In this document: positions 7,491 through 33,351 of the stretch, in pieces
Numbering within the stretch: position 1 is the stretch's first letter
How the letters are laid out: every line of letters begins with the position of its first letter
NCBI GenBank assembly: GCA_017540175.1
Contig: JAFYBN010000069.1
Span: forward strand, 1-35,997
DNA length: 35,997 nt
Direction of reading: 5' to 3'
Source of the DNA: Clostridia bacterium
GTDB taxonomy: Bacteria > Bacillota > Clostridia > Oscillospirales > CAG-272
Position numbers and translations under genes: made by a program
The notes under the pieces: model-generated
Seen by the model: the letters and a program-made list of their open reading frames with translations, nothing else
Told to the model about the DNA's origin: nothing
Databases searched by the model: none

Positions 7491-7510
7491 GATCGGGCAA
7501 AAATCCGATC
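7491..7510 (-). terminator. Possible weak terminator after the sulfatase gene
   Basis: GATCGG and CCGATC form a 6-bp stem overlapping the sulfatase stop codon. Two T-runs follow about 10 nt later on the minus strand (7466-7481). The spacing is poor for a classical terminator, so termination here is uncertain. Some read-through into nagA is possible. Confidence 0.35.
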
Positions 7511-8861
7511 ATTCGCCCCGTCCGCACTGCCACGCGACCCAGTCGGAGGCGAAGGGATCACGGCGGCGGCGCAGTTCGGCGAGCAGGAGCTTTCCGAGCT
7601 GTGCCATCACGTCCCGGTAAGCGGGATCGGACGCGCGGTTGACCTTCTCGCCGGGATCGAGGGTCAGATCGTAGAACTCGTCCCGATCGGTTAGGTTCCA
7701 GATGTATTTGTATTTTTCCGTCCGGATGCCGCGCTGGGTGAACAGACCGAACTGCTGACCGTTCGAGGTGAACACGGCGTAATCGGAGATGAAATCCTCT
7801 CTCAGATAATCCGGAGCCGCGTGCCCGTGCCGCGCGCTCTCCGCCTCCATCCCGAGCAGCGCTTCCACGGTCGGGGCGACGTCGAGCGAGCTGGACGCGA
7901 ATTTCTTCACGCGGGCGGCGGGGAGTCCGGGAGCCTTTACGAGGAAGGGCACGTGCGTCACGCAGTCGTAGAGGATGTAGTGCTTGTCCATCATCCCGTG
8001 GTCGCCGGAGGTGTCCCCGTGGTCCGAGAGCAGGATCACGACGGTGTTCTCCGCCTGATTCGTCTCGTCGAGCGCGACGAGAACGCGGCCGATGGCGGCG
8101 TCCGTCTGGGTGATCATGCCGTAGTAATACGCGGCGGTCGGCGCGAAATCCGCCCAGGTCTTACCGCAGAGCTTCCAGTTTTCAAGCTGCTTCTTCTGGA
8201 TGTAGGGCTTGTTCTCGAGTGTGTCGCCGAAACCGTCCCATGGCTCGATCTCAGCCGGGTCGTACATCGTGTCGTACGGCGCGGACGGGCGGCATGGGAG
8301 ATGCGGGTCGGTGATGTCCACCCAGATGTGCCACGGCGAGCCCGCGTTTCTGCGAATGAAATCCGCGGAGGCGTCGCAGATGCGGCAGGTCTTCGTGTCC
8401 TCGAATGCGATGGGATTCGAGCATCCGAACCAGGAGTTCGGGTAGTCGATCGGGCCGTATTTCTCCCCGATCTCCTTCGACCACGCCGCGGCGTCGAAAA
8501 CGGTTTCATACCCGAAGGCACCCTCGTCCCCGTTCGGCGAGGCGTCCCATTTGCCCGCGAAGCCGAGCTTATAGCCCCGCTTGCCGAGCTCCGAAACCCA
8601 GGTCGGAACAGCAGGGTCCGCCCCGTGCGTGTTTACGAAATTGTAATTGAACAAAGCGCCGATCGAATCCGGCTGAACGCCCGTGAGCATGGCCTGACGG
8701 GACGGCGCGCAGACGGGCAGGGGGGAATACGCGTTCTCAAACCACATGCCCTCCGCGGCGAGGCGGTCGATGTTCGGGGTCTTCACCGGACGGATGCCGG
8801 AGGCGCCCACGCAGTCGTACCGCATCTGATCGACGACGATGAAAAGAACATTGAGGTCCAT
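7509..8861 (-). CDS. Cytoplasmic sulfatase (arylsulfatase family, Cys-type)
   Basis: A type I sulfatase that hydrolyses sulfate esters with a formylglycine nucleophile. The 450-residue product opens NVLFIVVDQMRYD, the metal-binding strand, and carries C51-A-P-S-R55 followed by QAMLTG. This is the Cys form of the signature and must be oxidised by an anaerobic radical SAM maturase, which I do not see here. LLSDHGDTSGDHGMMDKH gives the second metal site. The open frame extends about 50 codons upstream into the previous gene, but the ATG at 8861, 14 bp after that gene with GGAGG in front, fits the family start. There is no signal peptide, so it should act on imported sulfated sugars. The substrate is unknown; the nagA neighbour makes sulfated amino sugars plausible. 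Confidence 0.88.
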   Translation of the reverse strand: MDLNVLFIVVDQMRYDCVGASGIRPVKTPNIDRLAAEGMWFENAYSPLPVCAPSRQAMLTGVQPDSIGALFNYNFVNTHGADPAVPTWVSELGKRGYKLGFAGKWDASPNGDEGAFGYETVFDAAAWSKEIGEKYGPIDYPNSWFGCSNPIAFEDTKTCRICDASADFIRRNAGSPWHIWVDITDPHLPCRPSAPYDTMYDPAEIEPWDGFGDTLENKPYIQKKQLENWKLCGKTWADFAPTAAYYYGMITQTDAAIGRVLVALDETNQAENTVVILLSDHGDTSGDHGMMDKHYILYDCVTHVPFLVKAPGLPAARVKKFASSSLDVAPTVEALLGMEAESARHGHAAPDYLREDFISDYAVFTSNGQQFGLFTQRGIRTEKYKYIWNLTDRDEFYDLTLDPGEKVNRASDPAYRDVMAQLGKLLLAELRRRRDPFASDWVAWQCGRGE

Positions 8862-8875
8862 ACCCCTGCCTCCGT

Positions 8876-9793
8876 TCAGCTGTTCGCGAGGATGTAGCGG
8901 GCGGCCGCCATGCCGACCTCGCTGCCGATCTTGCCGTCCTCCATGCCTTCGAATTCGACGGAGACATATCCGTCGTAGCCCGCGGAGCGGATGAAGCCGA
9001 GCGTGGACCACACGTCGAGGTCGCCCTGCGCGAGAATGGAGCCGCGGAGCATGTACTCGCCGGAATTGGATGAGAACCAGGAGCCGGAATCACAGCGGAA
9101 GAGCCCGCCGTTGCCCGTGAGCCGGTCCGCGCGGCGGATATAGAAATCCTTTAAGTGCACCATCTTCGCGATGGGAGCGCATTTCTTCACGGCGACGGTC
9201 GCGTCCTCGTCCACGCAGGTGAAATTACCCGTGTCCAGCAGCAGACCGAAATTGTCCCGACCCACCGCGTCGATCAGACGGATCACGCGGTCGGAGCCGT
9301 TGATGAAGAACCCGTGGTTTTCCACAAGCGTGGTGATCCCGTACTGCGCCGCGTAATCGGCGAGCGCCTGACAGGTTTCGACCGCGATGGGGAATTCGCG
9401 CTCAAAGGCGACGGGGGTGTTCGATTCGAGCGGGCGGCGGAAGGAGGAGACGTCGTGCCGCATCTGCTTCAGCCCGAGCTTGGCGGCGACGTCGATGTGC
9501 CGCTTCAGGCGTTCGACTTCCGCTTTCCTCGCGTCCGGATCGGGCTTCAGGAGGTCGCCGAGCACGGCGTAGTTCGAGAGCGGGAGTCCGATTTCCTCCG
9601 AAACCCGGCGGATCTCGGCGATCAGGGGCTCGTTGAATTCGCCCGTCTTGTCGTCGTGCAGGGTGAAGCCGAAGGGGACGAGCTCGATGTGCTCCGCGCC
9701 GAGGTCCTTCGCGAAGCGCATGACCTCGCAGACGGACATCAGGCCGCCGCAAATGTAGTTGTTCATGCTGTAGGAGGTGAGACCGATTTTCAT
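8876..9793 (-). CDS. Sugar phosphate isomerase/epimerase-like TIM barrel protein
   Basis: A 305-residue protein of the xylose-isomerase-like TIM barrel superfamily, which contains sugar isomerases, epimerases and dehydratases that use a divalent metal. Putative metal ligands are the Glu in TLVENHGFF, the Asp in LLLDTGNFTC, the His in KMVHLKDFY and the Glu in YVSVEFEGMED near the C-terminus. The substrate cannot be read from the sequence. It is followed 14 bp later by the sulfatase and preceded by rsmI 37 bp away, so it probably shares their transcript. Together with the sulfatase and nagA it forms a carbohydrate insert in an otherwise housekeeping block. Confidence 0.8.
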   Translation of the reverse strand: MKIGLTSYSMNNYICGGLMSVCEVMRFAKDLGAEHIELVPFGFTLHDDKTGEFNEPLIAEIRRVSEEIGLPLSNYAVLGDLLKPDPDARKAEVERLKRHIDVAAKLGLKQMRHDVSSFRRPLESNTPVAFEREFPIAVETCQALADYAAQYGITTLVENHGFFINGSDRVIRLIDAVGRDNFGLLLDTGNFTCVDEDATVAVKKCAPIAKMVHLKDFYIRRADRLTGNGGLFRCDSGSWFSSNSGEYMLRGSILAQGDLDVWSTLGFIRSAGYDGYVSVEFEGMEDGKIGSEVGMAAARYILANS

Positions 9794-30266: not shown

Positions 30267-31874
30267 TTATACGTATTCGAAATCGTCCGCCGCCTTGAAC
30301 CACTTGCCCTCGCCGAAGCTGAGACCGAAGAGGATGACCGCCACGATCAGCCAGCCGATCATGAAGGGAGAGGTGTAGTAGAAGCCGAGCGCCGCGTGAT
30401 GGATGAAGCCGAAGAGCGAAAGCACCGCGCCGGAAAACGCGATCAGCGACGCGCTCTTCAGCTTGCGGTCGATCATGAAGACGCACATCGAGCCGAGCAA
30501 AATGCCGATGATGATCGCTCCGGATTTGACGGCGGGAACGCCGTTCCACATCGCGCCGTTGTCGAGAAGGGTCTTGGAAACGTCGAAACCTTCAACAAGG
30601 AAACCTTTCATTCCCGTTTCGGGAATGATCGAAGAGAAGATCCCAGCTTCCGTTCCCCCGATTGCCATCGAACCGGTCGCGACGGCAGCTTCGATCTGTG
30701 TAAACAGATAGTCCGCAATCGAGGGGACCATGGCAATGGCGATCGCCGCGTAGTGCTTGGGTTTGCATTCCTTGAACGCCTGCGCAACCATGATGACCGC
30801 GCACCACAGGAAGGTGATCGCGACGACGGCCGGAGGAACAAGATCGTCTAAGACCGTGAAGAGGCCGAAGATACCCGCCAGCCCGAGCACGATGCCGGAA
30901 ATCCAGCTGTAAGCCGCGCCAGCGTTCGTCTTTTTCAGACCGGGATGACCGAGCCATACGGTGTTCGGCACGACGCCGCCGAAGAGGGAGGAAATCATCG
31001 TGCAGATACCGTCGGCAAACTGCGCCTCGCGGACATTGTAGCCGTCGCCCGCGGCATTCGCGGATTCCACGTTGTCCATCGTTTCGATGAAGTTGTAGAT
31101 CTCAACCGGGATGACGACCGTGAGGTATGGCGCGACATAGGCGAAACCGTTTATCAGGGACTGGACCGTGTTTACGGGGTTCGGGAAATAGAAGCCGACC
31201 TGCGTGAAGTCGAAGGTGGTGCGACCGAGGCAGATCGCGTACACGATGCCGCCCACGATGGCGATCATAAAGGGAGAAATCTTTTTCGGGAAGAGATAGC
31301 CGGCGAAGAGACCGAGCATGGCGACCGCCAGAATGGGCAGACCCACGACGGGATCGCTGAAGACGTCGAACACGCCTTCCGTCGCCATCCAGATGAAGCC
31401 GATGCCGGCGACGGTGCCGAGCAGGGCGGCGCGGGGCAGGTGCTTTTTGACCCAGGGTCCGATGAAGCCGCCGAGGAATTCAACAAAGCCGCCGATGAAG
31501 CACGCCGCCATCGCCGCGCCCCATTCGACCTCGGGATCGCCGATCGAATAGTGGATCGGACCGATGACGCCGAACAGGATGACGAACATCGCGGGTGTGG
31601 AGATGCCGGAGGGCAGCGCCGTGACGTCCGCGCGCTGGAGCTTGGCGGACAGCTTGTGCGCCATCCAGGCGTAATACAGACCTCCGCAGAGCAGACCGAT
31701 GGACAGACCGGGAATGACGCGCCCGAAGATGATTTCCGCGGGCCATTCATAGGAGTACTGCAGGGTTGCGATGATGATGATGTAGTTGACGATATTGTTG
31801 GTGATCATATACGTCAACCCGCCCACATCCCCTCTCGTAAAGAACGGGATCAGGCTCTTCTTCTTTGCTTCCAA
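30267..31874 (-). CDS. Nucleobase-type permease (NCS2/AzgA-like)
   Basis: A 535-residue polytopic membrane protein with roughly 12-14 hydrophobic segments. The order FTRGDVGGLTYMITNNIVNYIIIIATL, then PSGISTPAMFVILFGVIG, GVVPNTVWLGHPGLKKTNAGAAYSWISGIVLG and MVPSIADYLFTQIEAA resembles the purine/xanthine-uracil permease superfamily, especially the longer AzgA-like proteins. The cargo is not known. The start is a TTG with AGGGGGAA upstream, and the N-terminus fits the family. It lies 50 bp after the MtmB-like gene and shares its transcript up to the terminator at 30208. The pairing suggests it imports the substrate of that enzyme. Confidence 0.8.
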   Translation of the reverse strand: MEAKKKSLIPFFTRGDVGGLTYMITNNIVNYIIIIATLQYSYEWPAEIIFGRVIPGLSIGLLCGGLYYAWMAHKLSAKLQRADVTALPSGISTPAMFVILFGVIGPIHYSIGDPEVEWGAAMAACFIGGFVEFLGGFIGPWVKKHLPRAALLGTVAGIGFIWMATEGVFDVFSDPVVGLPILAVAMLGLFAGYLFPKKISPFMIAIVGGIVYAICLGRTTFDFTQVGFYFPNPVNTVQSLINGFAYVAPYLTVVIPVEIYNFIETMDNVESANAAGDGYNVREAQFADGICTMISSLFGGVVPNTVWLGHPGLKKTNAGAAYSWISGIVLGLAGIFGLFTVLDDLVPPAVVAITFLWCAVIMVAQAFKECKPKHYAAIAIAMVPSIADYLFTQIEAAVATGSMAIGGTEAGIFSSIIPETGMKGFLVEGFDVSKTLLDNGAMWNGVPAVKSGAIIIGILLGSMCVFMIDRKLKSASLIAFSGAVLSLFGFIHHAALGFYYTSPFMIGWLIVAVILFGLSFGEGKWFKAADDFEYV

Positions 31875-31924: not shown

Positions 31925-33289
31925 TTACAGGTTCACACCGAGGGAGCGCAGCTCTTCACATACCTCGTTGTACAGTCCGAGCCAGAATTCCTTCGGTTCA
32001 CCGTCCTCGCCGTAGACCTCGTCGAAGGAGAAGCCCTCGTTGCCCGCGGCAAAGATGTGCTCGTACTCGCCGAGCAGCTTTCGGATGATCGGTTCCGCCT
32101 GTTCGCGGGTCATGCCCTGCGCGGCGGCGGCCTTTCCGACTTCTCCCATGAGACGCGCTTCCAGTCCGGAGCAGTTGGGCTTCAGACCGTCGCAGGAGCC
32201 GACGCCTTCAAGGTGACCGCCGGAAACCGTGATCGCAAGGGCGTTCGCCGCGACCTCGAGCAAAAGCTCCTTCGTGCCCGCGCCGCTCTTCGGATAGATA
32301 TCGCAGATGATGACGGCGGGAGCCGCTGAGCTGAACGCCTGACAGACGACGCTCGAGAGCCACATGCATTCGGGCGTCGAGGTGGCGATATGCTTGATGT
32401 GGATGGGGTGGCAGAGGTGGTAATCCGCGCGGCCGATCAGGGAATCGGCGAGCAGGGAAGCGATCATACAGACCGCCGCGCCCTCCGGACCGCCCGCAAG
32501 TCCTCCGACCATGACGCAGGCGAGGGAGGCGTTGAGCAGACGCACGGGCGTTTCCATGGCGTTCGCCACGCGGATGAGGTTGTCGTTCGTCATGATCAGC
32601 TCGTTGTTGAGCGCGATGAGATGCGCGTCGCCGTCCTGGAACCCGCCGGGCGTCATCGCCGCAAGGTCGCCGATCTCCGATACGCTGCTTTCCGCGGCGA
32701 GCCGCCCGATGCCGGGTCTTCCGACCTTTAAGCAGATCTCATTCAGGTATTTCATTTCGCGTCTGAGCGCGAGCACCTCCGAGGGGGAGGCGCGCACCAC
32801 GTCGAAGCCGTCGACTTCGACAATGGAGCCGCAGGTCACCATGTCCACGACGGGCTCCTTCGCCCATGAGGTCACGGTCTTCTGAAACAGTTCCTCGGTC
32901 ATGGGACAGCCGGGATTGCCTGCGACCACGCCGGGCAGAACGGAAGAGTCCGGCACGCGCGGCTCAAAGGTATAGGCGTCCGCGCCGCGCCCGACCGTCA
33001 CTGCTTTCGGCATATTCTTCGCGGCTTCAAGGATTTCCTCCCGCGTGAAGCGGATGACGCGTCCCGTCGACTGGTTGTACACGCCGGAGCGGACGAGGAG
33101 CTCGACGGCGGCGTCGAAATAGGCTTTTGCCTCATCGGCGTCATGAAGAAGCAGGGCGTCGTCGTCCCGTTCCAGCTCGAACTCCTCCACGACGTCCATG
33201 ATGGGCATGACCACATGATCCATGTCCCAGTTGTCCTTTGTCACCGCTTCCCCGGTATAGGAGCGGTTCACAAGCTCTAAAAAGTGCAC
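31925..33289 (-). CDS. MtmB-family methylamine:corrinoid methyltransferase homologue without pyrrolysine
   Basis: A 454-residue homologue of monomethylamine methyltransferase MtmB (458 residues in Methanosarcina), which moves a methyl group from methylamine to a corrinoid protein. Similarity is seen in EPVVDMVTCGSIVEVDG, VGRPGIGRLAAESSVSEIGDLAAMTPGGF, YHLCHPIHIKHIATSTPE and GLEARLMGEVGKAAA. MtmB has pyrrolysine (UAG codon) 16 residues after the start of GRPG. Here the ungapped equivalent is I206, an ATC codon (32674-32672), and the frame has no internal TAG. The start is the GTG at 33289, seven bases after GGAGG, which gives almost exactly the MtmB length. No corrinoid protein, RamA-like activator or pyl gene lies nearby. 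The substrate is unknown and probably not monomethylamine. Confidence 0.85.
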   Translation of the reverse strand: MHFLELVNRSYTGEAVTKDNWDMDHVVMPIMDVVEEFELERDDDALLLHDADEAKAYFDAAVELLVRSGVYNQSTGRVIRFTREEILEAAKNMPKAVTVGRGADAYTFEPRVPDSSVLPGVVAGNPGCPMTEELFQKTVTSWAKEPVVDMVTCGSIVEVDGFDVVRASPSEVLALRREMKYLNEICLKVGRPGIGRLAAESSVSEIGDLAAMTPGGFQDGDAHLIALNNELIMTNDNLIRVANAMETPVRLLNASLACVMVGGLAGGPEGAAVCMIASLLADSLIGRADYHLCHPIHIKHIATSTPECMWLSSVVCQAFSSAAPAVIICDIYPKSGAGTKELLLEVAANALAITVSGGHLEGVGSCDGLKPNCSGLEARLMGEVGKAAAAQGMTREQAEPIIRKLLGEYEHIFAAGNEGFSFDEVYGEDGEPKEFWLGLYNEVCEELRSLGVNL

Positions 33290-33351
33290 GGCAATACCTC
33301 CGTCATGCAGAATGATGCGCGGTTCGCGCGAACAGAGCGGACCGCAGACGC

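Follow-up and report, generated by a model that had tools for sequence, protein, structure and literature searches.

A gene on the minus strand of the window (the whole 35,997-nucleotide stretch analysed here, from a Clostridia bacterium) encodes a pyrrolysine-free methyltransferase of the MtmB superfamily, and its most likely role, tentatively proposed from its gene neighbours, is that of a corrinoid-dependent demethylase of an N-methylated purine-like compound. This methylpurine reading is drawn because the gene is conserved as a pair with a permease, because kin of that permease lie in purine clusters and because purine-type genes neighbour other pyrrolysine-free MtmB genes. An earlier note on this DNA had recognised the family, had seen that pyrrolysine is lacking and had proposed a demethylase, points that are all supported here, and had erred in assigning isoleucine to the pyrrolysine site and in regarding such enzymes as scarcely described. 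The partner permease and the missing linked corrinoid gene, which we consider the informative features of the locus, went unmentioned in that account.

Gene model and family membership

The MtmB-like frame (31925–33289) is open on the minus strand over 454 codons, confirming the length and frame in the earlier note, and is interrupted by stops on the plus strand. It begins with GTG, preceded by GGAGG (33297–33301, minus strand), which reads as a likely ribosome-binding site, and contains no in-frame TAG, ruling out a read-through reading of the gene. Comparison with five relatives gave dN/dS values of about 0.10–0.12, so that the frame is not a chance ORF and appears to be under strong purifying selection.

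A search with PF05369 returned an E-value of 2.9e-83 and 280.6 bits, well over the cut-off of 25, with alignment to profile positions 4–449 of 450, and phmmer matched the protein to 1l2q and 1tv2 at E of about 1e-59. In the predicted structure the MtmB TIM-barrel fold is retained along the whole chain; the model is weak at residues 194–223, so a detailed reading of the pocket is unwarranted. Membership of the MtmB superfamily, as the earlier note had proposed, is secure.

No RNA regulator was recognised ahead of the operon: no Rfam model matched in the window at its gathering score, the two weak matches (E 0.14 and 0.61) being taken as chance, and the upstream regions of ten loci align poorly, with a mean column identity of 42%. 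Elsewhere in the window (7509–9793, minus strand), a sulfatase gene is followed by a xylose-isomerase-like TIM-barrel gene, a sugar-degradation setting.

The pyrrolysine column and surrounding residues

The alignment with MtmB from GRPG onwards, on which the earlier note relied, is real, and Ile206 is indeed encoded by ATC (32672–32674, minus strand). However, this residue lies in SEIGDL, nine residues past the column of MtmB pyrrolysine 202, which falls on Leu197 (codon CTC, 32699–32701, minus strand) in three alignments, among them the phmmer alignment to 1l2q and those with seven TAG-bearing genes; these alignments reject Ile206 as the pyrrolysine position. Leucine occupies the column in all 13 clade members examined.

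At the columns of MtmB Glu229, Glu259, Gln333 and Tyr335, residues that surround the pyrrolysine and whose letters were checked in 1l2q, 13/13 clade rows read Leu, Leu, Asp and Tyr. All seven TAG-bearing rows retain E, E, Q and Y, whereas the clade retains Tyr only. Opposite Glu259, the phmmer alignment to 1l2q places Ala254 and the multi-row alignment Leu. Judged from its sequence, the window protein is not a pyrrolysine-type monomethylamine methyltransferase.

The partner permease and its relatives

A permease of 535 residues (30267–31874, minus strand) begins 50 bases downstream of the MtmB-like gene on the same strand. The two genes are adjacent at 12 of the 13 clade loci (the window and L013–L024), the most divergent locus, L024, being without the permease. 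Within the genus, 7 of 25 genomes carry the MtmB-like gene, and the permease is present in 7/7 of these against 0/18 of those lacking it. Across the order the gene is patchy, as MtmB was found in 2 of 394 sampled genomes; on plasmids, the MtmB-like gene gave no match.

The window permease matched no Pfam family up to E 10 and no NCBIfam family. Seven relatives likewise drew no Pfam match at laxer or equal limits, 21 relatives gave no meaningful NCBIfam match, and a profile of the family found no match among solved structures. Its predicted model (pLDDT 43.6) is too poor to be used alone, the top Foldseek rows being BicA, SLC26, SVCT1 and UraA at E ≥ 2e-3. Its relatives nevertheless suggest a purine-type permease. 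In a tree of 26 permeases, the seven rows of the clade join those of L158, L160 and L159 at 100/100, with identities of 66%, 52% and 54%, respectively (the L159 sequence is cut by the contig end). At both L158 and L160 the permease gene is preceded by two adenine deaminase genes; all four carry PF13382, and the one tested against TIGR01178 scored 620.8 over a cut-off of 472.5. The L159 permease shares its locus with a different MtmB homologue, a corrinoid gene and a lipoprotein of the Bmp/PnrA type. Since the L159 MtmB is not close to the window protein in the MtmB tree, the link between this type of permease and MtmB appears twice. Searches for a purine riboswitch at nine related loci found none; a molybdenum/tungsten riboswitch lies downstream of the adenine deaminase–permease operon at L160 (10181–10297).

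Relatives of the permease, at E 1e-20, occur in 15 of 398 sampled genomes of the phylum, and plasmid relatives amount to 156 records, whose labels include NCS2 permease, xanthine permease, xanthine/uracil/vitamin C permease and hypothetical protein. Both Roseobacter plasmid relatives examined belong to xdhABC clusters, with a urate hydroxylase gene in the vicinity and, in one case, guanine deaminase as well. An E. coli relative is found beside fdrA and carbamate kinase genes, a cyanobacterial relative has no purine gene nearby, and other members of the family stand alone or with other genes. The transporter family is widespread, and its members often reside in purine or ureide clusters.

Neighbourhoods of other pyrrolysine-free MtmB genes

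Pyrrolysine-free MtmB enzymes, which the earlier note held to be scarcely described, are better represented than it supposed: an MtmB match occurs in 28 of 398 sampled genomes of the phylum, TAG-bearing in 8 of those, and the available text of PMC13044021 presents a tree of 1,061 MtmB sequences, in which enzymes outside the named clades (most of the tree) are pyrrolysine-free and of unknown function, as well as one assayed enzyme.

Among 28 pyrrolysine-free MtmB records of other clades, every one has a nearby corrinoid gene and 18 have at least one purine-type neighbour within about 10 kb; five of the remaining ten are covered by only 3–10 kb. The purine-type classes comprised a xanthine dehydrogenase subunit, a purine-deaminase-type amidohydrolase, PucR, Bmp/PnrA, a nucleoside-type ABC permease (our own label, the best NCBIfam model being a B6 permease, under cut-off), NCS1 and the present permease. 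Such neighbours were seen at none of eight pyrrolysine loci (two under 9 kb), at none of 12 loci with corrinoid or MeTr genes in relatives of the window, and in 4 of 20 arbitrary 16.5-kb regions, all chosen by hand on contigs that also bear an MtmB locus, with two of the four positives ~10–16 kb from it. Fisher's test gave P = 0.0029 against the pyrrolysine loci and P = 0.0034 against the arbitrary regions, values that are uncorrected for the relatedness of the rows and that rest on classes fixed after inspection and on query proteins drawn from some of the scored loci.

Pairs of pyrrolysine-free MtmB and corrinoid genes lie in purine-type clusters at L056, L058, L063, L064, L065, L067, L069, L070, L074, L159, L173, L174 and L177. 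An 8-oxoguanine deaminase model scored over its cut-off at L056 and L177 and slightly under it at L065, while at L064 SsnA exceeded its cut-off and a xanthine dehydrogenase subunit was recognised by Pfam, under NCBIfam cut-offs. PucR was found at L059, L060 and L069, Bmp at L056, L063, L159 and L173, and NCS1 at L174.

The nearest relatives of the window clade, L057 and L060, differ in their neighbours and do not settle the substrate. L057 holds a corrinoid gene, an MtrH/MtgA-like gene, a PocR-type regulator and ECF-type transporter genes, with no purine gene; the ECF-type genes stand directly before the corrinoid/MtmB pair (L057:3337–8982), with a putative substrate-binding membrane protein that has no convincing family. 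L060 holds a corrinoid gene, a PucR regulator and glycine-cleavage-like genes, labelled by eye except for a lipoate ligase. As a separate observation on pyrrolysine genes, two genomes each carry two equal-score mtmB copies ~4 kb apart (G519:C3, 177173–183987; G553:C11, 6228–13102), which look as if kept alike by gene conversion.

An unlinked corrinoid protein and its activator

None of the 13 clade loci has a linked corrinoid gene, against 28/28 of the other pyrrolysine-free records and 8/8 pyrrolysine loci. The genome of the window (G000) does encode a corrinoid system, consisting of a corrinoid protein, a RACo/RamA-type activator and a methyl-H4F:corrinoid methyltransferase, all unlinked to the MtmB-like gene. 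The lack of any corrinoid system, which the earlier note had named as grounds for rejecting its proposed demethylase, thus does not apply, and these proteins would be putative partners of the enzyme.

On G000:C49, the corrinoid protein, whose best NCBIfam models are MtgC-like but score under cut-off, is accompanied by DUF2284, RACo-like activator and URO-D genes; a homocysteine S-methyltransferase gene lies ~4 kb away from that for the corrinoid protein. Corrinoid protein, DUF2284 and RACo-like activator occur together, as a trio, in 8 of the 13 genomes with an MtmB-like gene. Within the 15.8 kb examined, G002 has the corrinoid gene only; G246 and G816 have a less similar corrinoid gene, and no trio was found there; no similar corrinoid gene was found in G011 and G820, both drafts, the former 78% complete. 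Of the 18 genus genomes that lack an MtmB-like gene, at least three also contain the trio (G006, G018 and G017, the last with a longer corrinoid frame). G009 has a corrinoid frame, DUF2284 and URO-D genes, the activator being absent from the stretch examined, and G008 has a 335-bit corrinoid match in a longer frame; for fourteen further corrinoid matches, nine loci were examined and the other five lie inside MetH-size frames. A corrinoid protein scoring >400 bits to that of G000 is found in 6/7 genus genomes with the MtmB-like gene and in 2/18 without it. The trio is thus statistically tied to the MtmB-like gene but not exclusive to it. In many relatives DUF2284 lies between the corrinoid protein and the activator, beside URO-D genes, as a recurrent unit (L004:9375–12961), and these usual neighbours may be the real clients of the trio.

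Methyl acceptor and methionine synthesis

The methyl acceptor may be folate, homocysteine or both. In G000 and G024, genes for an MTHFR-like protein, ETF beta, ETF alpha and the methyl-H4F:corrinoid methyltransferase form a cluster (L131:3412–6917, on G000:C38; L132:2928–6433), which looks like a methyl-H4F module linked to an electron-transfer flavoprotein. The methyltransferase is stand-alone in G000, G024 and G018, the last without an MtmB-like gene, and elsewhere among the 31 genomes was found only within 10 MetH-size frames. No MtrH/MtgA-type enzyme was found in 12 genomes with an MtmB-like gene.

It is possible, if somewhat unlikely, that the methyl group serves mainly for methionine synthesis, the MtmB-like enzyme, corrinoid protein and homocysteine S-methyltransferase together replacing MetH. 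This proposal concerns the acceptor, whatever the substrate, and is compatible with the methylpurine explanation. It is favoured by the lack of a MetE match in all 31 genomes, by the distribution of MetH-size frames (0/13 genomes with an MtmB-like gene against 10/18 without; within the genus only, 0/7 against 10/18, P = 0.02 among related genomes), by a homocysteine S-methyltransferase that adjoins the corrinoid gene or lies close to it in 4 of the 13 genomes and by a precedent in the available text of PMC12478193, where demethylation is connected with methionine synthesis. On the other hand, the methyl-H4F:corrinoid methyltransferase of G000 and G024, with its MTHFR-like and ETF genes, could complete a split methionine synthase that is fed by folate; MetH-size frames are also missing from eight genomes without an MtmB-like gene; and absence from draft genomes of related organisms carries little weight.

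Other substrates and other chemistry

Like MtqB, the window enzyme might instead demethylate a simple methylated amine, quaternary or otherwise, which the permease would carry. According to the available text of PMC13044021, MtqB, the sole assayed pyrrolysine-free MtmB that we found, acts on tetramethylammonium and choline. A BCCT carrier adjoins a pyrrolysine-free MtmB/corrinoid pair with no purine-type neighbour at L062 (5123–6721), which makes the locus a candidate for an MtqB-like quaternary-amine system. However, no BCCT-like gene was found at any of the 13 clade loci, and in the tree the window permease clusters with counterparts from adenine deaminase operons, so that we regard a simple amine as unlikely.

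A less probable alternative, and a doubtful one, is that corrinoid chemistry has been lost and that a repurposed MtmB-fold protein acts otherwise on the substrate of the permease. The lack of a linked corrinoid gene throughout the clade would fit such a loss, as would the changed Glu229, Glu259 and Gln333 columns and the lack of a similar corrinoid gene in G011 and G820. These two genomes are drafts, though, and loss of the chemistry is harder to reconcile with the predicted retention of the fold over the whole chain, with purifying selection and with the >400-bit corrinoid protein that, although unlinked, accompanies the gene in six of seven genus genomes. That the enzyme is a monomethylamine methyltransferase working without pyrrolysine is very improbable: MtqB has low monomethylamine activity without that residue (PMC13044021, available text), but the window protein has Leu at the pyrrolysine column, the three changed columns, no linked corrinoid gene and a purine-type permease.

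Proposed function and significance

For the window enzyme, substrate, transport, corrinoid partner and methyl acceptor are all inferred. In the methylpurine reading, the pyrrolysine-free protein would be the substrate-specific methyltransferase of a corrinoid system, and the partner permease would bring in an N-methylated purine or a closely related nucleobase. The TIM-barrel enzyme may hold this substrate at the pyrrolysine site of MtmB (columns Leu197, Leu224, Leu256, Asp330 and Tyr332). The methyl group would pass to cob(I)alamin on the separately encoded corrinoid protein, kept active by the RACo-type activator, and next to tetrahydrofolate or homocysteine, while the demethylated base would enter purine use.

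This reading is weakened because a linked corrinoid gene is missing at 13/13 clade loci and the trio is not specific. It is further weakened because ten of the 28 pyrrolysine-free loci lack a purine neighbour, L062 has a BCCT carrier, L057 and L060 differ, and L024 has no permease. A broader and still more tentative proposal is that much of the pyrrolysine-free MtmB superfamily of the phylum consists of anaerobic corrinoid-dependent methylpurine N-demethylases, the window clade being a streamlined form that has a permease of its own and draws on a shared corrinoid protein encoded elsewhere in the genome, perhaps as a source of methyl groups for methionine. As part of that same tentative proposal, substrates such as 7-methylguanine, 1- or 3-methyladenine, N6-methyladenine and methylxanthines would feed purine catabolism and one-carbon metabolism.

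Turnover of RNA and DNA yields methylated purines, and dietary methylxanthines are a further source. The locus suggests methylpurine demethylation by the MtmB relative of a rumen-type bacterium; if true, methylated purines could be demethylated by an oxygen-free route, and corrinoid demethylation would reach beyond amines and ethers to nucleobases. What is new here is the genomic context, namely a pyrrolysine-free MtmB beside a purine-type permease and purine genes around other pyrrolysine-free MtmBs, and this neighbourhood evidence offers a concrete, assayable substrate class for a part of the MtmB family that lacks an assigned function. In the open-access literature, within the texts available, no link of purines or methylxanthines to corrinoid or MtmB enzymes was found, and the available parts of PMC10418091 and PMC10653893 have no bearing on the question.

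Comparison with known systems

A functional parallel is the MttB superfamily (MttB, MtgB), whose TIM-barrel methyltransferases, some of them pyrrolysine-free, pass methyl groups to corrinoid proteins. The 13 pyrrolysine-free MtmBs in purine-type clusters share with the window protein the lack of pyrrolysine and the purine-type neighbours, but each has its own nearby corrinoid gene and they belong to other parts of the MtmB tree. As with NCS2-type purine permeases, relatives of the window permease bear NCS2 or xanthine labels and lie in purine clusters, yet no curated nucleobase-permease profile matches it.

Family and fold are shared with MtmB of Methanosarcina barkeri (PDB 1l2q, 1nth and 1tv2), the monomethylamine methyltransferase, from which the window protein differs in having Leu197 for pyrrolysine and Leu, Leu and Asp at the positions of Glu229, Glu259 and Gln333, and its gene differs in having a partner permease and no linked corrinoid gene. 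A further hint of varied substrates in the family comes from strain DCMF, in which, according to the available text of PMC9768040, a pyrrolysine-free protein of the MtmB superfamily showed the greatest rise on dichloromethane. According to the available text of PMC13044021, MtqB of Methanococcoides methylutens Q3c is the first pyrrolysine-free MtmB with a demonstrated function and has a conserved Met/Cys near its ligand. Compared by published description rather than by sequence, MtqB and the window protein are alike as pyrrolysine-free members of the MtmB superfamily, whereas an MtbC-like corrinoid protein is encoded next to MtqB, which takes tetramethylammonium and choline as its substrates.
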